A stretch of 64,000 bases of DNA from Williamsia sp. CHRR-6 (GTDB lineage: Bacteria; Actinomycetota; Actinomycetes; Mycobacteriales; Mycobacteriaceae): NCBI RefSeq assembly GCF_018474015.1, contig NZ_JAHCSG010000004.1, positions 186,001 through 250,000 of the forward strand, given 5' to 3'. Position numbers and translations under genes: made by a program. Of the stretch, positions 5,867-46,994 are shown in pieces (position 1 is the first letter of the stretch; the number at the start of each line of letters is the position of its first letter). Under the pieces are notes generated by a model. It was not told the origin of the DNA, searched no databases, and was given only the letters and a program-made list of their open reading frames with translations.

Positions 5867-5917
5867 AATGTAACGGGATGTGCCGTTCGCGAGGTCGGGT
5901 CACCTAGAGTTGGCTGC

Positions 5918-6769
5918 ATGACGACCGATCCGGTGCCGCTGGGCGAATCCGCTCCCCGCGACCTGATCGTGACGCTGTTCGGTCTCTACTCCCGCGGGGA
6001 GAACAACTGGCTGCCGGTGTCGGCGCTGGTGCGGCTGATGGAGGAACTCGGCATCGACGGACCGGCCGTGCGCTCGTCGGTGTCGCGGCTCAAGCGGCGC
6101 GGTGTCTTACTGGGTGTCCGACGTGAGGCGACCGCCGGTTACGAGCTGTCGCCGGCCACCCTGCAGGTGCTCACCGAGGGCGACACCCGCATCTTCCGTC
6201 GGGTGCGGTCCACTCTGGCCGACGGGTGGCTGCTACTCACCTTCTCCATCCCCGAAAGTGAGCGCGACAAGCGCCACGCCCTGCGAACTGCGTTGTCTGG
6301 TCTGGGGTTCGGCACCGTCTCGCCGGGGGTGTGGATCGCCCCGGCCGCCCTGGAGTCCGAGACCAAGACCATGTTGGACCGCAAGGGTTTACGCGACTAC
6401 GTCGAGTTGTTCGCCGGCCACCACCTGGGGTTCGAGGATCTGCGATCACGGGTGCAGCGCTGGTGGGACCTCGACCAGATCACGCTGTCCTACGCCGACT
6501 TTGTGCGCCGACACCGCCGACTCACCTCGGTCGACGTCGCCGACGCCGCGGCCGCCTTCGCCGCCTACGTGCCGATGCTCACCGCGTGGCGCGTGTTGCC
6601 CTACCTCGACCCGGGGCTACCGCTGGAGGTGCTGCCGGCCGGGTGGAACGGGCAGGTGGCTGAGGAGCTGTTCGGCGAGCTCAACGACCGCCTGAGCGCA
6701 CCGGCCCGCGAGTTCGCGCTCGACGTCCTGCACGGATCGGCCGCCTCGGGTCCGCTCACGACCCGCTGA
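5918..6769 (+). CDS. PaaX-family transcriptional repressor
   Basis: A 283-residue protein with the PaaX layout. It has an N-terminal winged helix (about 14-85; DLIVTLFGLYSRG, then VRSSVSRLKRRGVL), a central ferredoxin-like domain (about 105-185; WLLLTFSIPESERDKRH), and a C-terminal domain with the family's WWDL and conserved aromatic residues. PaaX proteins repress aromatic catabolism genes and release DNA on binding an aryl- or phenylacetyl-CoA thioester. The ATG at 5918 is chosen because the winged-helix homology begins just after it. The gene is divergent from the ligase, and its last 14 bases overlap the 3' end of the convergent RidA-like gene. No phenylacetyl-CoA epoxidase genes are nearby, so the inducer is more likely the CoA thioester made by the adjacent ligase. 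Confidence 0.88.
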   Translation: MTTDPVPLGESAPRDLIVTLFGLYSRGENNWLPVSALVRLMEELGIDGPAVRSSVSRLKRRGVLLGVRREATAGYELSPATLQVLTEGDTRIFRRVRSTLADGWLLLTFSIPESERDKRHALRTALSGLGFGTVSPGVWIAPAALESETKTMLDRKGLRDYVELFAGHHLGFEDLRSRVQRWWDLDQITLSYADFVRRHRRLTSVDVADAAAAFAAYVPMLTAWRVLPYLDPGLPLEVLPAGWNGQVAEELFGELNDRLSAPAREFALDVLHGSAASGPLTTR

Positions 6770-7175
6770 CCGCGACGGCTGCGCCGATGTGGGCGACGGC
6801 GGCGATCTCGATCATCGCCTCGGGCTGCCACAGCGCCGAGATCCCGATCCCCGCCATCGCCGGGTAGGTGTCACCGGCCAATTCCCGCCAGATGCGGCCG
6901 ATCTCGCGTCCGTTGCGCTGATAGTCGGGGATGTCGGTCAGGTAGATCGTCACCGACAGCAGATCAGCCGGGGTACCGCCGGCCGCGGCCAGCGCGGTGA
7001 GCATGTTGGCGAAGGACTGGCGGAACTGCGCGACGATGCCGCCGGAGACGATGGCGCCGTGCGCGTCCATGGCGGTCTGCCCGGCGAGATGGACGATGCC
7101 GTTCGACGAGCGGCTGGCGTGCGCGAAACCCGACGGGGCGGGCAGTGATTCGGGGTTGATATGGGTGACAGCCAT
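6756..7175 (-). CDS. RidA-like (YjgF/YER057c/UK114) protein lacking the canonical arginine
   Basis: A 139-residue protein with the Rid fold, seen in GIVHLAGQTAMDAHG, the central helix QFRQSFANMLTALAAAGG, and VTIYLTDIPDYQ. Canonical RidA enamine/imine deaminases carry an Arg in the FPARS motif; here the segment reads YPAMAGIGI, so that Arg is replaced by Met. The protein is therefore a divergent subfamily member, not housekeeping RidA. Rid paralogues within catabolic clusters are thought to act on pathway-specific imines or enamines, which would fit a 2-aminobenzoyl-CoA route. The gene converges on the PaaX gene (14-bp overlap) and is divergent from the FAH gene. Confidence 0.82.
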   Translation of the reverse strand: MAVTHINPESLPAPSGFAHASRSSNGIVHLAGQTAMDAHGAIVSGGIVAQFRQSFANMLTALAAAGGTPADLLSVTIYLTDIPDYQRNGREIGRIWRELAGDTYPAMAGIGISALWQPEAMIEIAAVAHIGAAVAVSGS

Positions 7176-7207
7176 CGGTTCCGCTTTCTCTCATTGCCAC
7201 GCGAAGG

Positions 7208-7234
7208 CATATTGTGCGACGATTGCGAGCGTCA
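7208..7234 (+). promoter_or_regulatory. Candidate PaaX-type operator, site B
   Basis: This site reads CATAT, nine bases, then ATTGCGAGCGTCA, and lies between the RidA-like gene and the FAH gene. It matches site A (5840-5866) at all five CATAT positions and 12 of 13 positions of the distal block, with identical spacing. This suggests one regulator controls both divergent promoters. Confidence 0.5.
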
Positions 7235-7298
7235 CCACTACGGTATATCACGACGGCGGAACATCACTGAGCGGAAACGGTACGGGTTGGAGGCGGAC

Positions 7299-7958
7299 AT
7301 GCGCATCGGGATCTCACGCACCCCGGCGAAGGTGATCTGTTGCGGCCACAACTACCGTGCCCACATCGCCGAGATGGGCCGCCCCACACCGCGATACCCC
7401 ACCCTGTTCACCAAGTTCGCCGACACCCTCACCGGCCCCCACGACGACATCGTGGTGCCACCTGAGGCCACCGGCCTGGACTGGGAGGCCGAGTTGGCGG
7501 TGATCGTGGGCGCTGAGGTCTGGCGCGCCGACCCGACCGAGGCCGCCGCGGCGATCGCGGGATACACCGTGGCCAACGACATCTCGGTGCGCAGCTGGCA
7601 GCACCACACCGGGCAGTGGCTGCCCGGCAAGGCTTTCGACGCCACCACTCCGCTCGGTGATGAGCTGGTGACCCCCGACGAGGTGGACCCACGCGCCGGC
7701 CTGGCCATCACGTGTCGGGTGAACGGGGAAACCGTCCAGGCCGCCCGTACCGACGACCTGGTGTTCGACGCACCGGCGTTGTTGGCCTACATCTCCGCCT
7801 TCACGCGATTGCGCGCGGGCGACGTGGTGTTGACCGGGACACCCGGCGGGGTGGGTGCCGCAGCCGACCCTGCGCGCGAGCTGGTCGACGGCGACGTGGT
7901 GGAGACCGAGATCGAATCGATCGGCAAGCTGTGCAACATGATCCGAATCCAGGAGTGA
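7299..7958 (+). CDS. Fumarylacetoacetate hydrolase-family protein
   Basis: A 219-residue single-domain FAH-family enzyme, a family that includes fumarylpyruvate hydrolase, 2-oxo-hepta-3-ene-1,7-dioate hydratase and oxaloacetate decarboxylase. The motif KVICCGHNYRAH at the start, the metal ligands in LDWEAELAVIVG (E-x-E) and VANDISVRSWQ, and the late GDVVLTGTPGGVG are all intact. The ATG at 7299 is preceded by GGAGGCGG and aligns with the family start. It begins a run of three tightly spaced genes (2-bp gap, then a 4-bp overlap). It probably cleaves or decarboxylates the ring-opened product of the pathway; the exact substrate is inference. Confidence 0.87.
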   Translation: MRIGISRTPAKVICCGHNYRAHIAEMGRPTPRYPTLFTKFADTLTGPHDDIVVPPEATGLDWEAELAVIVGAEVWRADPTEAAAAIAGYTVANDISVRSWQHHTGQWLPGKAFDATTPLGDELVTPDEVDPRAGLAITCRVNGETVQAARTDDLVFDAPALLAYISAFTRLRAGDVVLTGTPGGVGAAADPARELVDGDVVETEIESIGKLCNMIRIQE

Positions 7959-10853: not shown

Positions 10854-13800
10854 TCACTCCTCGCTGTCTGCGGTAGCTGTCACGCTGCGGCGCTGCTGTG
10901 CCTGGGCCAACCGTCGGGTCAGGTCGGCACCGACCACGCCGATGTAGGGCTCGTCGATGATCGACAGGTGGTCGCCGCCGATGTAGACCACCTCGAGGTC
11001 ATCGACCACCTCGCCCCACCGTCCGTCCGGGGCGATGTCGGCGTACTTCGGTTCCAGTTCGATGGCGTCGTCGTGCATCTTGTCGGCGCGGTAGAGCACC
11101 ACCGAACCGTCGTAGCGGGAGGGCACCACCGTGGCCAGTGCGCGGTTGTCCAGGAACGAGGTGCGGGTGTGCTCGATGATCCCGGCCGGAATGGCGGCAT
11201 TGCTCATCGACAGGAACTCCATGATGATCCTGAACTGTCCGTCGTCGTCGGCGGCCACCAGCCGCTCGACCGGGATGGGCACATCCTCGAGGCCGTACCG
11301 AGTCTTGGCGTAGTTGAGGTAACGGGTCATGCGGTCACGTTTGCCCTCGATGGTCTCGGGCTCGTCATCGCTGGGACGGACCACGTCGATGAGAGCCACC
11401 AGGTCGACCTCCTCGCCGAGCTCACGCAGCCGTTGCGCACACCCGTAGGCCAACGCACCACCCAGCGACCATCCCGCCAAGACATACGGTCCGTGCGGCA
11501 CGTATTCGCGCAGCTTGGGCAGGTATTGCTCCACCCGCTCGGCCACTGTGCCCTCCACCCGCTCGAACCCGATGACCGGCTGGTCAGCGGGCAGCCGCTT
11601 GAGCAGGGGCTCGTAGGACGAACTCGATCCACCCGCGGGATGGAACACCAGCAGCGGCGCCTTGTCGGAACCCTCGACCCTGCGCAGCCACCGGACGAAC
11701 CCGTCGACGGTGCTGCTCTCGAGTTGCTCACGCACGTAGACCGCAAGCTCCTCGATGGTGTGCGAATCGAGGACGTCCTCGATGTCCACGGTGCCGCCGG
11801 TGCGCTCACACAGCCGCGCGGTGAGCTGCTCTGCGGTCTTCTGGTCGAGAACGGGCAGAGGATTGAAGATGCCGCCCGCGGACTGTCCGGTGACCACAGC
11901 CCACACCCCGAAGGTGAGCCGCTCGGCGGCATCGCGGGGAGGCAGATCCACTCCGGCGGCGGTGGCCATGGACGCTTGATCGGTCGGCTCCGCAGTAGTC
12001 GGCGTCGACTCGCCGCGAGCCGGTGCAGGCTGCGTCTCGGCCGGGGTGGGCGGGGCTGGGGTGGGTTCGGCTGGGGTAGGCGGGGCTGGGGGGGCCTCGT
12101 CGATCAGCTTGGCCAGTGCGGCGGTGTCGATCTCGGCGGCAGCGGGATCAGCGGCCAACGCGGCCACCTGATCGCGGTTCTCCACGGCGTAGGTGACGAA
12201 CCTGACCACATCGTGCAGCGCGGCCTCACGCATCGCCTGCAGCTGCAGCTGCGGGATGTCGAACTCGTACTCCACGCGGTTCTTGATCCGCATCGCCATC
12301 AGCGAGTCCAACCCCAACTCGATGAGCGGGATCTCCCGCGGCAGGTCCTCGGGGTCATACCCCATGGACTCGGCCACGATCAGCGCCACCCGCTCCTCGA
12401 CGGTCTGGCCGCTGTCGGGGTCCCAACGTGCACCGATCTCGTCGATGATCTCGGGGTCGGTGATGACGGTGGGGTCGACGAACGCCGACGGCTGCTCGGC
12501 GTCCCCGGCCCCCTCGCTCGCGGTGTCACCCGCAGCGGCCGGACCGCCCGACGTCGCCGCGGTGACCACAGCGGTGGCCAATACCGTGAACCCGCCGCCG
12601 GCGGCGTGGGCGTGTATCTGCACCGAGGCGCCACCGGGATGGGGGGTGAGGGTGGTGGTCAGCGTGCCCGACTCCGGCACCGGACCGCTGGTCTCCACCG
12701 CCCCGACGCGAACGTCGTCGAGCACCGAACCTGCCGCGGTGCGTGCGAGTTCACGCAGATCGGTGACCGCGGCCGCCGACACCTCCCAGGCGTGACGACC
12801 GTCGGGCAGGGCCACGTGTGAGCCGGGCACCCGGCCGGTCCCCGATCCGCCACCGATGGTGGCGCGCATCCAGAACCGTTTGCGTTCAAAGCGGGTTCGC
12901 GGGATGTCGGCGTAGTCGCCTGCGCCGAACAGCGACGCCACGTCCACCGCGTGGCCGCGGGTGTAGAGCTTCATCAACGCGGTGACCACGCCGACGCTCT
13001 CGTCTTCCTTGCGACGCAGCGTCTCGATCAGCTCAGCGTCGTGCAGGCCGGCACCGAAGGCGACCGCGGCCACCGAGATGAGCACCGCCGGGTTGGGCGA
13101 GAGCTCGATGAAGGTGCGGTGCCCGTTCTCCACCGCCTTGGCGATGGCCTGGGAGAACCACACGCTGTGGCGCAGCCCCTTGGTGAAGTAGTCGATGGTG
13201 TGGACCGGCTCGCCACCGGGACGGTAGAACGTCTCCCGGTCGATCGAGCTGTAGAACCCCACCTTCGGGCTCAACGGTTCGATGCCGGTCAGCTCGTAGG
13301 CCAGCTCGCCCAGCAGCGGATCCATTTGAGAGGTGTGGCTGGCGCCCTTGGTCGCCAATTTGCGACCCAACTTGCCCTCGGCCTCGGCGCGGGCGACGAT
13401 CGCGTCAACCTGCGCCTCCGGGCCGCCGATCACCGTGTGGGTGGGTGCGGCGTAGACGCAGATCTCCAGGTCGGGGTAGTCGGTCAGCACCTCGGTGATG
13501 TCGTCGGCGGAGTACTCCACCAGTGCCATCAGGCGGATGTCGTCGCCGGACAGACCTGCCTCACCCTCACCCATCAGCCGCGAGCGCTGACAGATGACCC
13601 GGGTGGCGTCCTCCAACGACAGGCCACCGCTGATGTAGGCGGCCGAGGCCTCCCCCATCGAATGTGGGACCAGCACACCGGGTTGCGCGCCGTGGAACCG
13701 CAGCAACTCATACAGCGCCACCTGGATGCTGTAGATGCCGACCTGTGCGGTCTCGATGCCGTAGGTCTGCTCGTCGTCTCCGAACATCTCCACGATCGAG

Positions 13801-36849: not shown

Positions 36850-37194
36850 CGCGGTGGTTCCTAACGTCTGGGGTCTGGGGCCGACCCGGTCAACAGCAGG
36901 CCGACCCGGGGTGACAGCAGACTCATCGACATCGACAGGTCGGCTGTTACGCATGGGACCAAAGTGACTCTAGGTGCTGATCCCCATTCTCAAAAGACGA
37001 CTTGAGTCACAACAGCATCACGAGTTACACGCCACGCCGGGCGCGGTCGTGGACTTACCGCGCGGACGCAGACACGATGTGGCGGTTCTCCCCGGTACCT
37101 GCGGAGACCCTTGTTCGGGGGAATCGGCGCTGCTCACACCGGGGTGAGGCTCGGACATCCCGGGTCCCTGACGCTCACAGCAAGGGAGAACGCG
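36850..37194. other. 345-bp divergent intergenic region
   Basis: This lies between the SpoIID/LytB gene (-) and the PGRP amidase gene (+) and must hold both promoters. The stretch 36955-37030 is AT-richer. I see no operator palindrome that I can assign. Confidence 0.5.
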
Positions 37195-39321
37195 GTGCGC
37201 TACCGCCCCTCGAAGCCATCGGCTGTACTGGCCACCGTCGCCGCGGTGGCCGTCACCAGTCCGCTCGCCGTCCACGTCCTCGGCACCTCGCCGGACAACA
37301 CCGTCGAGCATCGGTCCCCGGCGGCCACCGCCGGCATCCCCACCAGCATCGATCAGATCCGCCTCGACAGCGTCCCGTCGATGGTGCTCGACGTGGTGCG
37401 CTCCGGGTTGGCCGCCGTCGGTGTCACGCTGCCCCCGATCGACCTGACCACGTTCAACCTCGACGACGTCGGCCGCCTGCTGCCGCCGGGGGTGCTACCC
37501 GACGGGATACTGCCTGCTCGCGCACCCGACACGCAGGGTCCGCAGCCCGCCCCCACCGACCCGCGTCGACCCGTCTCCGCCCAGATCCCCGCCGGCGCGG
37601 TGGTCAAGGAGATCACCCGCCCCGACCCGTTCTCGATGATCGCGCTGACCTGGAAAGACATCTCCGACTCCGCGGCCCGCGGCGTGTCCGGCACCAGCGC
37701 CGTGGTGCGCGCCCGCAAGGCCGACGGCTCGTGGGGCCCGTGGATCAACGCCGATCCCTCCGACGGGGGCGACCCGGCCCGCACCTCAGGCCGTCCGAAT
37801 GAGCAGACCGGAACCGAGCCGGTGTGGGTGGGCGACACTCGCGCGGTGCAGGTGGTGGTCACCAAGAAGGGTGTGGCTGCAGCGGCACCGGTGGGCAGCA
37901 CGCCTGCGCCCACCGTCGGTGCCACCACCACCGTTCCTGCGCCGCCCGCCCCGAAGCCCCCCGTCGACCGGGCACCGGCCAACAACGCACCCGAGCGCGG
38001 TGACCCGGTGGCCCCGCGCGATTACCGGTTGCCGCTGGAGCCGCCACCGGTACCCGCAGGCCCGTCCGCGGCTCCGGCACCGTCGCCCAACCCGCTCGAG
38101 CAGGTGTTGACCACCCTGTCGGCTGCGCTGATCAACCCCGGCACCGCCTCACCCATCGCCCCGCCACCGGCGGGGGCGGCACCGGTGTTGCCCGGTCAGC
38201 AGCCACCGATCATCACCCGCGCGCAGTGGGGGGCCGACGAGTCCAAGCGCTGCGACCAGCCCACCTACGACCCGGTGCTCAAGGGCGCGGTCGTGCACCA
38301 CACCGCAGGCAACAACGACTACACGCCCGAGCAGTCGGCGGAGATCGTGCGCGGCATCTACGCCTATCACGCCCAGACATTGGGGTGGTGCGACATCGGC
38401 TACAACGCCATCGTCGACAAGTACGGGCAGATCTTCGAAGGCGCGTTCGGCGGCCTGGACAAGAACGTCCAAGGCACCCACACCGGTGGCTTCAACCGGG
38501 AGACCGTCGGGGTGGCCATGCTGGGCAACTACAACGACATCGCGCCCACACCTGAGTTGATCCGCTCGGTGGGCAGCTTCCTGGGGTGGCGGCTGCGGCT
38601 GGCCGGCCTCGACCCCAAGGGCACCGCGCAGCTGGTGTCGCAAGGATTCGACACCGCCAAGTTCGGGGCCGGTGAGACATCCAACCTGCCCATGATCAGC
38701 GGCCACCGTGACTACGACAACACCGAGTGCCCCGGCGAATTGGGTTACGCAGCCTTGCCGCAGATCCGGGAGGTGGCCGCGGGCAACGTCACCGCAGCCC
38801 AACCCGCGCCACCTGCCGCCGGTCCCGCGAGCCCGGCACCCGCGCCCGGCACCGCCAACGCCGGTCAGGTGTTGACCATCGGCGACCTCGGCGCCATCGC
38901 CCAGAAGTGGCTGTCGCTGGGTGGGCCCGGCGGAATCCTGGGCAACGCCCTGAGCACCGAGAAGACCGTCGCGGGCAGCGAGGTGAAGTCGGTGGACTTC
39001 CAGAACGGGCAGATCGTGTGGTCTCCGACCACCGGCGCGCAGCCCCTGCTGGGCGCGATCGGCAAGGCGTGGACCTCCGCAGGCGCCGAGACCAGCTCGC
39101 TGGGTCTACCCGTCTCGGGTGAGAACACCGCAGTCGACGGCGTCATCACCCAGGCGTTCCAGTTCGGCACCCTGGTGTTCAACCGCGCGACCGGCGTGGT
39201 GGTTCAGGTCGTCAAGGCGTTCATCGACGAGTTCATCCGCAGCATGCGCGGACAGAGCGCACCGGGAGCCGCGCCTGCGGGTGCGCCGACGACTGCCGTA
39301 CCGGTACCACCGGCCGGCTGA
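37195..39321 (+). CDS. N-acetylmuramoyl-L-alanine amidase, PGRP type, with LGFP-like repeats
   Basis: A 708-residue secreted protein, counterpart of M. tuberculosis Rv3811. It has a signal peptide (about 8-30), a PGRP-associated beta domain (about 130-225; SMIALTWKDISDSAARGVS), a Pro-rich linker and a PGRP/amidase_2 domain (about 340-520). That domain opens with ITRAQWGADESKRC; zinc ligands are expected in AVVHHTAGNNDY and SGHRDYDNTECPGE. LGFP-like modules follow at about 560-680 (QIVWSPTTGAQPLLGAIGKA). It would cleave the stem peptide from muramic acid. GTG 37195 is preceded by AAGGGAG and the signal peptide starts there; the longer frame upstream is rejected. Confidence 0.9.
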   Translation: MRYRPSKPSAVLATVAAVAVTSPLAVHVLGTSPDNTVEHRSPAATAGIPTSIDQIRLDSVPSMVLDVVRSGLAAVGVTLPPIDLTTFNLDDVGRLLPPGVLPDGILPARAPDTQGPQPAPTDPRRPVSAQIPAGAVVKEITRPDPFSMIALTWKDISDSAARGVSGTSAVVRARKADGSWGPWINADPSDGGDPARTSGRPNEQTGTEPVWVGDTRAVQVVVTKKGVAAAAPVGSTPAPTVGATTTVPAPPAPKPPVDRAPANNAPERGDPVAPRDYRLPLEPPPVPAGPSAAPAPSPNPLEQVLTTLSAALINPGTASPIAPPPAGAAPVLPGQQPPIITRAQWGADESKRCDQPTYDPVLKGAVVHHTAGNNDYTPEQSAEIVRGIYAYHAQTLGWCDIGYNAIVDKYGQIFEGAFGGLDKNVQGTHTGGFNRETVGVAMLGNYNDIAPTPELIRSVGSFLGWRLRLAGLDPKGTAQLVSQGFDTAKFGAGETSNLPMISGHRDYDNTECPGELGYAALPQIREVAAGNVTAAQPAPPAAGPASPAPAPGTANAGQVLTIGDLGAIAQKWLSLGGPGGILGNALSTEKTVAGSEVKSVDFQNGQIVWSPTTGAQPLLGAIGKAWTSAGAETSSLGLPVSGENTAVDGVITQAFQFGTLVFNRATGVVVQVVKAFIDEFIRSMRGQSAPGAAPAGAPTTAVPVPPAG

Positions 39322-39327
39322 CCGATG

Positions 39328-39366
39328 CAGCAGGGCCCGCCCCGGCGTCCGGGGCGGGCCCTGCTG
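39328..39366. terminator. Bidirectional terminator hairpin
   Basis: A perfect 18-bp stem (CAGCAGGGCCCGCCCCGG and its complement) with a 3-nt loop sits seven bases after the amidase stop and about 20 bases after the stop of the convergent small secreted-protein gene. There is no long U-tract, as is usual in high-GC actinobacteria. Confidence 0.8.
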
Positions 39367-39386
39367 TCGTCGAGGGGGCGTGCAGC

Positions 39387-39773
39387 CTACTTCTGCTCGA
39401 TCGGGTCGTCGGACGACGCGGTGCCCGCGTCGCCGGTACAGGTGGCCTTGAGGGTGGCCTTCCAGCCGACGGTGTCGGGCTTGACGACCGGCTTGGGCTG
39501 CGGCACGCACGCCTGATCACCGTTGATGCGCACGGAGTTGAACAGGTAGAGGTTCACCTGCGCCACGATGACAGCGATGTCGGGGGTCGGGGCGTAGCGG
39601 CCCACGAACTCCTTGGTGTAGGTGCCCGGCGTGGGCGCGGTGGCCGTGGTGTCGGGCGTTTTCGGTGCGTCGGGCGCGGCGATGGCCACACCGGCTCCAC
39701 CGGCCACCGTGGCAGCCACGGCGAGTCCGACGACTGCGGTACGGAGAGTGCGGGTACGTGCTGTGGTGGTCAT
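39387..39773 (-). CDS. Small secreted protein of unknown function
   Basis: A 128-residue exported protein. The signal peptide (about 8-33, ending GVAIAAPDA) precedes a mature domain with TYTKEFVGRYAPTPDIAVIV, NLYLFNSVRINGDQACV and KATLKATCTGDAG. The two Cys probably form a disulfide. I do not recognise the family. The ATG at 39773 starts the signal peptide; the longer frame is rejected. It is convergent with the PGRP amidase, across a shared terminator. Confidence 0.7.
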   Translation of the reverse strand: MTTTARTRTLRTAVVGLAVAATVAGGAGVAIAAPDAPKTPDTTATAPTPGTYTKEFVGRYAPTPDIAVIVAQVNLYLFNSVRINGDQACVPQPKPVVKPDTVGWKATLKATCTGDAGTASSDDPIEQK

Positions 39774-39911
39774 GGCGCCCAGTGTTCCAAATAGCAGGCG
39801 CAAGTGCCACCGGCTGCACACGAACTGTGACAGTGACAGCCCCGAAGCTGAACAAGTTGTGATCCAACAAAATTCACCCATAGCGGACAACGCGCCCAGG
39901 TGAGGGGGTGC

Positions 39912-40742
39912 TCAGCCGAACCAGCGCGCCAACACCCGACCCACGCCGTCGTTGTTGTTGTGGGTGGCGATCTCGTCGGCGGCAGCCTTGGCGGCGGGGT
40001 GGGCATTGGCCATCGCCACCCCGCGGCCCGCCCATCGCAACATCTCGATGTCGTTGGGCATGTCGCCGAACGCGATCACCGACGCCGTCGACAGCGACGC
40101 GATCTGCGCCAGCGTCTGTAGTCCAGTCGCCTTCGTCACCCCCGGTGTGGCCAGTTCGACCAGACCGTTGTCGGTGGAGAAAGTGACCTCCACCAGGTGA
40201 CCCAGCTCGCCACGCAACCGCGCGGCCATCTCGGTGCTGGTCATGCCGGGCTTACGGATCAGCAGCTTCACCGCAGGTTCGGCCACCACCTCGTGGTCAC
40301 CCACTTCGATGTGGTCGGGGTTGAGCCAGGCGTGCTCGTAGTCGGCGCTGGAGATGAACGGGCTGACCGCGTCGTGCGCGCCCTCGCCCACCCGTTCGGC
40401 GGCCAGGCCGCACCCGGGGATCAGTTCCTTGGCCCGCTCGGCCAGGACGCTGAGCACGTCAGGTGCCAAGGTGGAGCTGTAGAGGACCCGGTCGGCCACG
40501 ATGTCGAGGATGATCGCACCGTTGGCGCACACCGCGTACTCGGCCACCCCGTCCAGCTGGGCGGCCACCTGCGAGATCCACCGCGGTGGGCGGCCGGTGG
40601 CCAACACGAACGGGGTACCCGCGGCCCGGGCATTTGCCAACGCACGCAAGGTGATCGGTCGAACGGTGTCGTCGTCGTCGATGAGGGTGCCGTCCACGTC
40701 GCTGGCGATGAGGGTGGGCGGGCCGAACCTGTGGCGGCGCAT
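39912..40742 (-). CDS. HAD-superfamily (Cof-type) phosphatase, Rv3813c-like
   Basis: A 276-residue HAD hydrolase with a C2B-type cap. Motif I is IASDVDGTLIDDDD, motif II is VLATGRP, and motif IV is in FGDMPNDIEML followed by GVAMANAHPAAKAAAD. Such enzymes dephosphorylate small phosphorylated metabolites. It corresponds in order to Rv3813c beside the acyltransferase cluster and starts three bases past the first acyltransferase stop. Confidence 0.92.
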   Translation of the reverse strand: MRRHRFGPPTLIASDVDGTLIDDDDTVRPITLRALANARAAGTPFVLATGRPPRWISQVAAQLDGVAEYAVCANGAIILDIVADRVLYSSTLAPDVLSVLAERAKELIPGCGLAAERVGEGAHDAVSPFISSADYEHAWLNPDHIEVGDHEVVAEPAVKLLIRKPGMTSTEMAARLRGELGHLVEVTFSTDNGLVELATPGVTKATGLQTLAQIASLSTASVIAFGDMPNDIEMLRWAGRGVAMANAHPAAKAAADEIATHNNNDGVGRVLARWFG

Positions 40743-42364: not shown

Positions 42365-42506
42365 GCGCGACAGCGTAGTGCGGCGCACGCGACCGACGAT
42401 CAGGGATCGACTGCGGTGCTCACCTGATGCCGACGCTGCGCGCCGCGGCGATACCCTGAACCGCAGACCCGACACGACCACATCTCGGGTGGGAGGAGCA
42501 GTTTCC

Positions 42507-44081
42507 ATGCAGATCACCAGCGTCGGACACGCCGGCTTCCACATTCAGACCGCCGCCGGATCCATCCTGTGCGACCCGTGGGTGAACCCGGCCTACTTCG
42601 CCTCGTGGTTCCCGTTTCCCGACAACACCGAGCTCGACTGGACAGCGCTCGGCGACTGCGACTACCTCTACGTCTCGCATCTGCACCGCGACCACTTCGA
42701 CGCACGCAACCTCACCGAGAACGTCAACAAGGACGCTGCGGTGCTGCTGCCCGACTTCCCGGTCCCCGACCTGAAACGCGAACTCGAGGCACTCGGGTTC
42801 CACCGGTTCATCGAGACCACCGACTCGCAGAAGATCACCGTCTCGAGCGACAAGGGCAGCCTCGAGGTGATGATCGTGGCGCTGCGGGCTCCGGCCGACG
42901 GGCCGATCGGCGACAGCGGGCTCATCGTCTCCGACGGCGAGACCACCTGTTTCAACATGAACGACGCCCGCCCAGTGGACCTCGACGCCATCTCAGATGC
43001 GTTCGGCCACATCGACATTCATCTCCTGCAGTACTCCGGCGCCATCTGGTACCCGATGGTCTACGACATCCCCCGCAAGTCGAAGGCCAACTTCGCCGCA
43101 CAGAAGCGGCAACGCGGCATGGACCGGGCCCGGTCCTACATCGAGCAGGTCGGCGCCACCTGGGTGGTGCCCTCGGCCGGTCCGCCGATGTTCCTCGACG
43201 ACGAACTGCGCGCCCTCAACGACACCGGCGAGGTGGACGACAAAGGCCGCCCCACCAGCATCTTCCCCGACCAGGCCACCTTCTTGGACCAGATGCTCAC
43301 CCACGGCACCGACGACGGCACCAAGCATCGGGGCCTGATGATGGTCTCGGGTTCGACCGTCGAGCTGCGTGGCAGCGAGTTGGTGGAGCTGGCCCACCCC
43401 TACCCACCCGAGCAGGTGTTCGGCGAGAACAAGGCCGCCTACCTGGAGCGGATGGCCGACAAGTTCGCCCCGGTCATCGCGGCCGAAAAGGCAACGTGGG
43501 CAACCGATGACGGCGAACCACTGCTACCGCCGCTACGCGAACTGTTCGAACCGATCATGGCCGCCAGCGACCTGATCTGCGACGGCATCGGTTACCCGGT
43601 GGGACTGGAGATCGGTGAGCAACGCGTGGTCCTCGACTTCCCCAACCGCACCGTGCGCGAACCGAAAGAGGGAGAAGGCAAGTACCGCTACGGTTTCCGT
43701 ATCGCGCCAGAACTGGTGCGCACAGTGCTGCGCGACAACGAGCCGGACTGGGTGAACACCATCTTCCTGTCCACCCGCTTCTCCACCTGGCGCATCGGCG
43801 GCTACAACGAATTCCTCTACACCTTCTTCAAATGCCTCACCCCCGAACGAATCGCTTACGCCGACGGCTGGTTTGCCGAGGCGCACGATGACACGGCGTC
43901 AATCATCAAGGACGGCTGGGAAATTCAGCGTCGGTGCCCACACCTCAAGGCCGACCTGTCGAAGTTCGGCGTCATCGAGGGCGAGAAGTTGACCTGTAAT
44001 CTGCACGGCTGGTCGTGGGATCTGGCCACTGGCCGATGCCTCACCTCCAACGGTCACGAACTGCGTTCGTCGAAGGCGTGA
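42507..44081 (+). CDS. MBL-fold protein fused to a Rieske [2Fe-2S] domain (Rv3818 type)
   Basis: A 524-residue protein. The metallo-beta-lactamase fold occupies about 1-300: GHAGFHI near the start, then SHLHRDHFD for metal binding. A middle segment follows, then a C-terminal Rieske domain with CPHLKADL and CNLHGWSWD as the two iron-sulfur ligand pairs. M. tuberculosis Rv3818 has this layout and a similar neighbourhood. It may be a redox or hydroxylase-type enzyme; the substrate is unknown. ATG 42507 has GGAGGAG upstream. GC content is slightly lower near the 3' end. Confidence 0.88.
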   Translation: MQITSVGHAGFHIQTAAGSILCDPWVNPAYFASWFPFPDNTELDWTALGDCDYLYVSHLHRDHFDARNLTENVNKDAAVLLPDFPVPDLKRELEALGFHRFIETTDSQKITVSSDKGSLEVMIVALRAPADGPIGDSGLIVSDGETTCFNMNDARPVDLDAISDAFGHIDIHLLQYSGAIWYPMVYDIPRKSKANFAAQKRQRGMDRARSYIEQVGATWVVPSAGPPMFLDDELRALNDTGEVDDKGRPTSIFPDQATFLDQMLTHGTDDGTKHRGLMMVSGSTVELRGSELVELAHPYPPEQVFGENKAAYLERMADKFAPVIAAEKATWATDDGEPLLPPLRELFEPIMAASDLICDGIGYPVGLEIGEQRVVLDFPNRTVREPKEGEGKYRYGFRIAPELVRTVLRDNEPDWVNTIFLSTRFSTWRIGGYNEFLYTFFKCLTPERIAYADGWFAEAHDDTASIIKDGWEIQRRCPHLKADLSKFGVIEGEKLTCNLHGWSWDLATGRCLTSNGHELRSSKA

Positions 44082-44144: not shown

Positions 44145-44165
44145 CCCAATAACTAACGTATTGGG
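44145..44165. terminator. Hairpin downstream of the MBL-Rieske gene
   Basis: CCCAATA and TATTGGG form a perfect 7-bp stem with a 7-nt loop inside an AT-rich stretch, 64 bp after the stop. It could be a weak terminator or a protein-binding palindrome in the upstream region of the glycine-rich gene; no U-tract follows. Confidence 0.4.
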
Positions 44166-44323
44166 CCAGTAAACAATTCGGTCGAAACCCTGGCTACATG
44201 TCCGTTTTGTGTGTTATCTACCTCTGTGGAGGATTTGCCCAGAGAACCCGCGACCACTCGCGAGTCCCGTGAAGTCTGCGCGCTGCGGTGAATCGAAGGC
44301 TTCGTCGGAGGGGGAATCCGGAC

Positions 44324-46858
44324 ATGAGCGGAACACGTCGATCTGCACGAGTCGCGGCACGCAAGAAGGCCGCACGGGCCCGCAACACCGCCGTGGCCCG
44401 GCGCTCGGCCGCCGGGGCAGCGATCGCAGCCAGCGTCATCGCCGGCGGCGGTGTGGTCTCCACCGATCTGGCCGACGCGGCACCGGAGTCGACGACAGAC
44501 ATCACCCTCGCCGGTTGGACCGGTGGCGGCGTGTTCTGGTCGCTGCCCACCCCGTGGGGCGGATCGGTGACGGCGAACCTGCGCACCGGCACCACCCCAC
44601 CGTCGGTGTCGGGGCAGTCCTCGGTTGCAGCCCAGGCGACCGGGCCCGTCCAGTCGGTGACCACCACCCAGGCCGTCACGCCGCGCGCCGGCAAACACCG
44701 CCGGGTCGATCGCACCGCCCCGCCGGCCGGTGGTCCGGCGTCCTCGCCGATCGCCGGGCTGGCCGCGTTGATGAGCTCCACCCCGTCGCCCGGGACCGGA
44801 ACCGCTTCGGTGCCCACCGACCCGACGAGCCCCACCTCGACCGTGTTGTCCAGCGTGCGAACCACTTTCGCGACCCCCATCACCCCGCTGGGGGTCAGCC
44901 TGGCCGCACCGACGGCCACACCGCCCGGGCTGATCACCACCTCGGGCCCGCTGCTCAACCCGCTGGCCCAGTTGATCGCCGCACTCATCGGTGACGGCGC
45001 CGATGCCGCAGCCGACTGCGTGGCGCAGGCGTGCAACGGCGGTAACGGCGGCATCCTGTTCGGCAACGGCGGCAAGGGTGCCAACGGCGGTCGTGGCGGC
45101 AACGCGGGACTGTTCGGCAACGGTGGTGCCGGCGGCAACGGCAACGCCGCCGGGGTGGCCGGCGGTGCGGGCGGCAACGGCGGATTCTTCTCCGGCAACG
45201 GCGGCGCCGGTGGCAACGGCGGGATCGGCGCCGACGGTGGCGCGGGCGGCAACGGCGGCTTCCTCTCGGGCAACGGTGGTGCTGGCGGCAACGGCGGCGC
45301 CGGTGTCGCCGGTGTCGCGGGCACGGCCGGTGTCGTGGGTGTCGTCGGCGCGACCGGCGCCGACGGCGACGCGGGTGCAGTCGGTTCGGCGGGCGCGGCT
45401 GGTCAGGCTGGCGCCACCGGCACCGCAGGTGCCGCGGGTGTCAACGGCGCCAACGGTGTGGACGGCGTGAACAGCACCAGCAACACCAGCCAGGCCGCAC
45501 CGGGACCCGCGGGAGGGGACCTGACCGGACAGAGCGGGATCACGACGGCCGGCGCCGGCGGCGCTGGAGCGAATGGCACCGTGCCCGGACAGCGCGGCGG
45601 CGACGGCGGGACCGGTGGAACCAACTCCGCGCCCGCGGGGATCAACTCGGGAGGCAGCGGCGGTGCCGGCGGCAACGGCGGTCCCGGAGCAACCGGTGGC
45701 AACGGCGGCGCAGGTGGCTTCGCGGTGAACGACAACGGCATCGCCATCGGCGGTGCCGGTGGCGCCGGCGGTACCGGTGGCGCGGGCGGTGGCGCAGGCG
45801 GCAACGGCGGGGTGGGCGGCACTGCTCGCGATCCGGGGCTGTCGCTGGCCAACGGTGGCACCGGCGGCACCGGGGGCAAGGGTGGAACCGGTGCCGCCGG
45901 TACTGCCGGTGCCAACGGCTCGGCCGGGGGCGCAGGCGGTCAGGGCGGCGACGGCACGGCCGGTGGCGTCGGTGGAACCGGTGGCAATGGCACCGCAGGC
46001 GCCGCCGGCGGGACCGGAGGCGTCGGCGGGATCGGCGGTGCGGGGACCGCGGGGACTGCCGCCGGAGCCGGCGGAGCCGGCGGGCGCGGCGGACTCTTCG
46101 GTAACGGCGGCGCCGGGGGCAGCGGCGGTGACGGCGGTGACGGTGGAACCGGAGGCGTCGGCGGGACCGGCGGGACCGGGGGCACCGGTGGGACCGGCGG
46201 CGCGGCAGGCAACGGTGGCGTCGGCGGGACCGGCGGAGCCGCGGGCGACGGCGGTGTGGGCGGCACCGGCGGTAGCGGCGGCAACGGCGGCAACGGTGCG
46301 ACGGGCGGCCCCGGCGGCAACGGCGGCAACGGCGGCAATTCGGCCGGCGACGGTCGCGTCGGCGCGGGTGGAGGCGCGGGTGCCGGCGGCGACGGCGGGG
46401 CTGGTGGTGCCGCGGGCACGGGCGGCGCCGGTGGCATCGGAGGTGCAGCCGGACAGGCCGGTGCTGGCGGAACCGGCGGCGCGGCAGGGAATCCGGGTGC
46501 AGGCGGAGCCGGCGGCCCAGGCGGCGCAGGCGGGGCCGGCGGGGTCGGTGGGGCCGGCGGCTCCGGTGGTGCGGCAGGCGCGGCTGGTGCGGGCGGAGTC
46601 TTCGGACGCACGGGCACCGCAGGGACGGCCGGAGCCAACGGCTCCGCCGGGGCAACCGGCGCGGCCGGGAACACAGGTGCAACCGGCCAATCCGGTGCGA
46701 CCGGGGCGACCGGTTCCGCAGGTGCGACCGGCGCCTCGGGTGCAGCGGGCCAGGCTGGTGCCACGGGGAACGCCGGTGCCAACGGCACCGCCGGGGCTGC
46801 CGGGGCGACCGGCGCGTCGGGTCAACCGGGGGGCTCGGGATCGAAGATCCCTCGTTGA
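44324..46858 (+). CDS. Secreted glycine-rich protein with PGRS-type repeats, no PE domain
   Basis: An 844-residue protein. A basic N-terminus ([20 protein letters not shown]) leads into a hydrophobic signal segment (about 30-52, ending DLADAAPES). A Thr/Pro/Ser-rich region (about 55-215) follows, then [12 protein letters not shown] at 221-232 with cysteines 232 and 237. From 239 it is almost entirely GGX repeats such as GGAGGNGG, with LFGNGG and FSGNGG blocks, passing near 700-840 into collagen-like GAT/GAS triplets. PGRS domains of mycobacterial PE_PGRS proteins carry LIGDGA and LFGNGGAGG blocks of the same kind, but here no PE domain precedes them. It is likely exported and surface-exposed; function unknown. 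GGAGGGGGA precedes ATG 44324. Its last residues (SKIPR) come from a downstream 23-bp repeat. Confidence 0.85.
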
Positions 46859-46920
46859 CCGGATCGAAGATCCCTCGTTGACCGGATCGAAGATCCCTCG
46901 TTGACCGGATCGACGATCCC
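46838..46920 (+). repeat. 23-bp tandem repeat overlapping the 3' end of the glycine-rich gene
   Basis: Three perfect copies (46838, 46861, 46884) and a degenerate fourth (46907). Each unit is GGATCGAAGATCC followed by CTCGTTGACC; its first 13 bases form a GGATC/GATCC hairpin with a GAA loop. The first copy encodes the final SKIPR of the protein and supplies its TGA stop. It differs in sequence from the GTCGAGTGGGCGG repeat family. Confidence 0.9.
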
Positions 46921-46994
46921 CGGCTGACACCGGGCCTGTGGTCGAGCGCGATCAGCCCGGCGTGATCGGCATCACACGTAGCAACATCCGTTGT

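Follow-up and report, generated by a model that had tools for sequence, protein, structure and literature searches.

The window analyzed here is a stretch of 64,000 nucleotides from a Williamsia genome of 4.0 Mb. The gene under study occupies 44324-46858 on the plus strand, as do all the features of it given below, and forms one open frame from an ATG encoding 844 amino acids plus a stop codon. It is separated by 242 bp from the preceding gene and by 194 bp from the next, and a candidate ribosome-binding site (GGAGG, 44307-44311), read from the sequence, ends 12 nt before the ATG. Upstream, profile tests recognized three genes: one for an LGFP-repeat amidase (37111-39321), one for a HAD-type hydrolase (39912-40742) and one for an Rv3818-like protein that combines SCP2_Rv3818 with a Rieske domain (42501-44081). 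We take the amidase/LGFP and HAD genes to be Rv3811-like and Rv3813c-like, respectively, with presumed acyltransferase-like genes between these neighbors and presumed FeoA, IspH and FeoB genes after the gene under study. In its best segment the neighboring Rieske protein shows 87-89% identity to the proteins of W. deligens, W. serinedens, W. herbipolensis and a Williamsia MAG, against 83-85% for other Williamsia and 77-84% for Gordonia; the genus was assigned as Williamsia on this basis. The minus strand is also open (44153-46930, 925 aa), because GC-rich Gly codons permit such frames; the plus strand was preferred because it has a start site and a signal peptide, matches a Pfam model and has relatives.

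The protein matched the Pfam PGRS model (PF21526) with 39.4 bits against a curated cut-off of 27, single stretches reaching 29.8 and 28.9 bits. It begins with a putative signal peptide (residues 1-52, 44324-44479), recognized by sequence inspection and a crude hydropathy/AxA rule, which has a long Arg/Lys-rich n-region, a hydrophobic core and an ADA/A cleavage site near residue 52. A linker follows (residues 53-205, 44480-44938; 32% Ser plus Thr and 13% Pro over residues 55-205) and leads to a PGRS head module, placed by profile alignment at about residues 215-299 (44966-45220), in which LIGDGAD at residues 221-227 is the equivalent of the GRPLI start of PGRS heads. The only cysteines of the protein, C232-VAQA-C237 (45017-45034), are a candidate disulfide, and the pair is conserved in Williamsia, with CxxxxC in six of the eight heads read and C-x5-C in the remaining two. 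Four hydrophobic GxGG-loop motifs at 45053-45280 (ILFGNGG at residue 244, LFGNGG at 263, FFSGNGG at 288 and FLSGNGG at 313) make up a candidate "sail foot", a function suggested by the PE_PGRS literature (PMC9436101, PMC10216338); past residue 335 there are two LF/VF-type loop motifs, at 591 and 759. The first-pass annotation had described a secreted protein with a signal segment, LIGDGAD, a pair of cysteines and a repeat of about 600 residues that passes into collagen-like triplets, and all of these were found. The signal segment shows the basic start, hydrophobic core and small-x-small cleavage site of an exported protein.

Residues 221-844 contain 290 Gly, 124 Ala and 11 Pro, and W, Y, H, M and E are absent. 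The Gly register is strict, with unbroken G-x-x runs at residues 318-383 (45275-45472), 511-579, 581-658 and 677-841, among others. The GGX/GXX repeat block (residues 511-841, 45854-46846) has short breaks at 580 and 659-676 and includes a collagen-like part (residues 759-835, 46598-46828) with a single Gly per triplet and no GG. A 23-bp tandem repeat of 3.6 copies (46838-46920) overlaps the end of the gene and carries its stop codon. The idea that it is a dispersed element was discarded, the three matches found among eight Williamsia genomes with at most 2 mismatches being all at this site.

Long unbroken G-x-x runs toward the C-terminal end (677-841 and others) are shared with BclA-type collagen-like surface proteins, from which the window protein differs in its PGRS head, in the two Gly that most of its triplets contain and in its low Pro content. 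The repeat could accordingly be read as a collagen-like or extended surface stalk rather than a membrane-embedded sail, the PGRS head being merely a cap. The perfect runs and the GG-free stretch at 759-835 agree with a stalk, as do the few hydrophobic loops past residue 335, which leave most of the repeat without a regular foot, and a phmmer search of solved structures, which returned collagens (E values down to 4.6e-60), BclA and other Gly-repeat chains. However, collagen matches are expected from composition, Pro is scarce, and the GGX repeat, in which two of three residues are Gly, follows the PGRS pattern. We consider the stalk unlikely, though it keeps some weight. Among the solved structures the head profile matched two engineered proteins at E 0.008, and AlphaFold run on the single sequence gave pLDDT values of 39.4 and 27.1, which lend the sail fold no support.

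The sail reading draws on PE_PGRS proteins of Mycobacterium, in which PF21526 follows PF00934. The window protein has in common with these the head of about 85 residues, the GG-x repeats, the LFGNGG-type loops and an export signal before the head, but it has neither PE nor a literal GRPLI and carries instead a head cysteine pair, a signal peptide, a Ser/Thr/Pro linker and a collagen-like end. The lack of PE, noted in the first-pass annotation, was confirmed with a PE profile built from three proteins, which was also applied to the relatives. For this census g1 was identified as Williamsia and g9 as Gordonia through named members, and g29 was assumed to be Mycobacterium from its wealth of PE_PGRS. 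PE was absent from all 17 PGRS proteins examined from outside g29, namely those of Williamsia (window, G107, G079, G120 and three from G018), Gordonia (G008, G140 and two from G171) and four genomes of three further genera (three from G001 and one each from G032, G050 and G167). Within g29, PE was absent from 63 of 63 PGRS proteins from eight genomes, G156 and G186 giving 18 and 19, and present in 18 of 18 examined from G069, G085 and G124, where the six, five and seven genes read as sequence are part of each genome's set. By coordinates and by eye, all 27 listed PGRS matches of G085 share a frame with a PE match. The census excluded duplicates, heads scoring below 20 bits and heads whose match began late in the profile; this left out G045 (L054) and G018 L043, whose N-termini look PE-free. 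The earlier statement that PGRS domains are normally attached to PE thus holds for three of the 11 PGRS-bearing g29 genomes and fails for the eight that are PE-free.

Export through an ESX (type VII) system despite the missing PE was weighed in the light of these data. In one locus from another genus of the family (L046) only 113 bp separate the PGRS gene from a preceding EccE gene, and EccD lies further upstream; the window genome, too, encodes an ESX cluster, which includes EccE and a PE-PPE pair. On the other hand, this cluster lies on another contig, the protein has no PE, and a signal-peptide-like start was found by the crude rule in 72 of 80 PE-free relatives (8 failed), making ESX export improbable. 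The putative signal peptide is the preferred route for the window protein.

Several observations were made on the surroundings of these genes. The EccE gene of L046 is at 5908-7449. The ESX cluster of the window genome, on contig C8, contains a PE-PPE pair (L149 12182-12484, PF00934 with 45.7 bits, and 12554-13528, PF00823 with 86.5 bits), together with WXG100, EccE and EspC-like genes (EspC-like at L149 10502-10819); the single PE match of the genome is on this contig and not on C4. PE/PPE genes and such ESX clusters outside Mycobacterium are already in print (PMC4791881); a 2025 review states that no PE/PPE has been reported outside Mycobacterium. In L042 and L054 the PGRS head is part of a much larger protein that, judged by eye, also contains VCBS/cadherin-like stretches; these are C-terminal in L042 and precede the head in L054. 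In L051 and L055, from two genera, PGRS genes are found near homologous genes (clusters C25-C27), among them a PucR-type regulator, which was tested by profile in L051, as well as a symporter and a dehydrogenase judged by eye. A large ATPase regulator of BTAD or LuxR type lies directly beside a PE-free PGRS gene in L040, L043, L049 and L057; these came from ten hand-picked neighbor proteins, which give no rate, and they hint at dedicated regulation of PE-free PGRS genes.

A small membrane protein with two conserved cysteines and no Pfam match, here named C9, is encoded next to the PGRS gene in Williamsia (L038 13384-13896, L039 12831-13337, L040 7109-7552, L044 5145-5591) and in another genus (L047 6913-7389). 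In g29 it was found about 0.5 kb (L225) and 1.7 kb (L235) from a PGRS gene and, by coordinates, next to a weak PGRS match (G112:C10); in most C9-bearing g29 genomes it is not near a listed PGRS match. C9 is present in 17 of the 201 family genomes. Five of these 17 were without PGRS in the Pfam family survey, of which G018 and G120 yielded one by further search and G135, G146 and G196 none. Since C9 was not found in the window genome, it was rejected as a required partner of the window protein. Its position near PE-free PGRS genes in three genera makes it a possible escort or anchor of such proteins.

The first-pass annotation had allowed that the link to PGRS might be only compositional. On that reading any Ala/Gly-rich high-GC repeat would resemble PGRS. 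Both the window protein and PGRS are indeed GG-rich, the tail has no specific motif, and phmmer reaches collagens by composition, as described above. A profile of 18 PE-type heads matched the window protein with 36.7 bits at residues 219-299, in the GRPLI-equivalent place, and none of 3000 shuffles of the protein reached this score (maximum 12.7). The same profile gave 15.3 to 47.0 bits with the other 16 non-g29 proteins, the lowest value being that of G018 L042. In the reverse test, a profile of 15 non-g29 heads (window head included) scored a median of 38.5 bits over 44 g29 PGRS frames, mostly at the head, and the match was lost in residue, triplet-block and nonapeptide-block shuffles (440 each, maxima for the three kinds 6.3, 8.2 and 17.6 bits). 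Four of the 44 frames scored below 20 bits, two of them being headless and one a PE protein with 11.5; the best match in L183 was at 498-580, away from its first head. These results reveal a kinship specific to PE_PGRS heads and well beyond composition, so that the refuting condition set in the first-pass annotation did not hold.

The head profile also proved taxonomically restricted. In the order sample it matched 34 of 397 genomes, all 34 from the same family (4 of 85 genera), and in the phylum sample 10 of 396 (4 of 237 genera), nine of them in that family; the sole match outside it, G828, is weak (30.1 bits). Both samples overlap with the family sample, only G828 being new among the ten phylum matches. 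With the Pfam model at E 0.001, at least 21 of 201 genomes of the family sample matched, in 7 of 31 genera, a lower bound, as this survey missed the PGRS genes of G000, G018 and G120. Among named genomes, three of 39 were above the Pfam cut-off, W. herbipolensis ARP1 (G079), Gordonia soli (G140) and Gordonia hydrophobica (G171), and two more had weak matches below it. The family concerned is presumably the mycolic-acid family by GTDB usage, and the near confinement of PGRS heads to it fits a role tied to the mycomembrane. Within Williamsia the gene is patchy, the head not being found in three of eight genomes. Given this confinement and the shuffles, a purely compositional likeness is very improbable. 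Judged from its sequence, the window protein is a homologous PGRS protein of new architecture in a new genus.

The match keeps only part of the GRPLI motif, AALI at 219-222 aligning with it such that LI is retained and GRP is not. According to PMC7550000, GRPLI is highly conserved where PGRS begins, and in a published model of PE_PGRS33 its L and I contact a Leu and an Ile 21 residues further on (PMC10216338). In our reading, LI (221-222) and IL (244-245) of the window protein are 23 residues apart, with two extra residues probably in the cysteine loop. No match to the window protein was obtained in NCBIfam or in phage and plasmid collections, and a search for relatives with the N-terminal 259 residues found none.

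PE_PGRS62 of M. tuberculosis sits between Rv3811 and Rv3813c, and the first-pass annotation had placed the block near the genes flanking it. Only the broad neighborhood, taken loosely, is the same. No PGRS was found in the window between the amidase/LGFP and HAD genes (39322-39911), and the PGRS gene is located beyond the Rv3818-like Rieske gene. In G124 a 521-aa PE frame between the amidase-like and HAD genes (L261 1754-3316, G124:C71) takes the place of PE_PGRS62, but PGRS head profiles did not match it and GGxGG occurs in it fewer than three times. The stretches around the Rieske gene in G069 and G085 contained no PE frame, the contig of G069 ending just past the HAD gene and the G085 stretch 2.8 kb past it. 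Among 24 genomes, 23 of them with the Rieske gene, a PGRS match within 10 kb of that gene was seen by eye only in the window genome and G107, contig breaks limiting the comparison in G079 and G120. A motif scan of 80 named loci around the Rieske gene, on contigs some of which end early, detected no other PGRS frame and one Gly-rich frame without PGRS motifs (L116). A PGRS gene is 2.5 kb from the Rieske gene and inverted in G107, and lies beyond FeoB, across a contig break, in W. herbipolensis; the PGRS locus is not conserved among relatives. From the 51 functional PE_PGRS genes of M. tuberculosis (PMC7550000) and a genome size of about 4.4 Mb for its relatives (PMC1660551), the chance of a PE_PGRS gene in a random 10-kb stretch is about 0.12. 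In view of this chance and of the headless PE frame in G124, synteny with PE_PGRS62 was rejected as a sign of common origin.

A tree was built from 61 of 98 heads (those of at least 40 bits, with a maximum of six PE-free heads per g29 genome); it is unrooted and based on 89 columns, and 20 of its 58 inner branches are open. The window head grouped with four other Williamsia heads (98/91), apart from the PE heads. Thirteen of the 17 PE heads clustered with good support (100/97), and with them one PE-free g29 head that begins GRPLV (L167). Another seven PE-free heads of g29, of which some start with GRPI, formed a group on that side of the tree, which is itself weakly supported. Mapped on the tree, the label "PE" requires three changes. 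Recent transfer of a mycobacterial PE_PGRS gene with loss of the PE part, which the patchy distribution might suggest, is hardly credible given this grouping, the PE-free heads common in other genera and the relative in the same Williamsia neighborhood in G107 and probably G079.

The PE-free form is favored as the older one because its spread is wider, and PGRS is thus likely to be older than PE_PGRS; since the tree is unrooted, this ancestry is inferred. Of the two origins offered in the first-pass annotation, an ancestral module is plausible, PE-free PGRS being present in several genera and in eight of the 11 PGRS-bearing g29 genomes, although the tree rests on 89 columns and is unrooted; independent evolution found no support. 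We incline slightly to the view that an old PGRS module of mycolic-acid bacteria began as a mycomembrane protein exported by a signal peptide, and that some mycobacteria then joined it to PE, rerouting it to ESX export and giving rise to PE_PGRS. Many Mycobacterium species would keep only the old form, with 18 and 19 genes read in two genomes, sometimes near the gene of a small membrane protein, a possible escort.

For the window protein itself, we hold it fairly probable that it is a PE-independent PGRS protein exported by its signal peptide, with a sail in the mycomembrane and an outward tail, and that its module predates the fusion to PE. The protein would leave the cell by the general secretory route through its N-terminal signal peptide, after whose cleavage the Ser/Thr/Pro-rich linker would lead to the PGRS head, with LIGDGAD in the place of GRPLI. 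In this lineage the loop between C232 and C237 probably staples the head, provided that the predicted disulfide forms. The head may start a polyglycine-II sandwich, the sail, whose LFGNGG-type hydrophobic loops would be seated in the mycomembrane's outer leaflet. The tail of GGX and Gly-x-x repeats may reach outward as a coat, stalk or adhesin. The fold and the mycomembrane location are carried over by analogy from the published PE_PGRS models (PMC9436101, PMC10216338). Such a module with a signal peptide probably came before some mycobacteria fused PE to it and hence acquired ESX export.

Within the open-licence text covered, no published PGRS from outside Mycobacterium came to light. PE/PPE/PGRS or PE_PGRS are stated to be restricted to mycobacteria or to pathogenic mycobacteria in PMC6016250, PMC8430768 and PMC10216338. 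The nearest precedent is a 2025 review (PMC11939664), which in its available part describes PGRS domains in M. smegmatis and related Mycolicibacterium species, calls the annotation of the N-terminus questionable and supposes an ancestral household protein. These proteins share with the window protein a PGRS outside the PE_PGRS-rich group; the N-terminus and PE are left open there, and in contrast to the present case the same text reports no PGRS outside Mycobacterium and contains nothing on "signal peptide". By analogy, the PE-free findings suggest that a signal peptide may stand in place of PE in such M. smegmatis-type genes.

The Williamsia protein moves the range of PGRS outside the genus Mycobacterium, and PGRS proteins from other genera with a signal peptide instead of PE offer material for structural work. 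If PE-free PGRS is common to Williamsia, Gordonia and many mycobacteria, domain capture becomes a testable origin for PE_PGRS, and the basic role of PGRS would be one in the mycolic-acid envelope rather than in interaction with a host.
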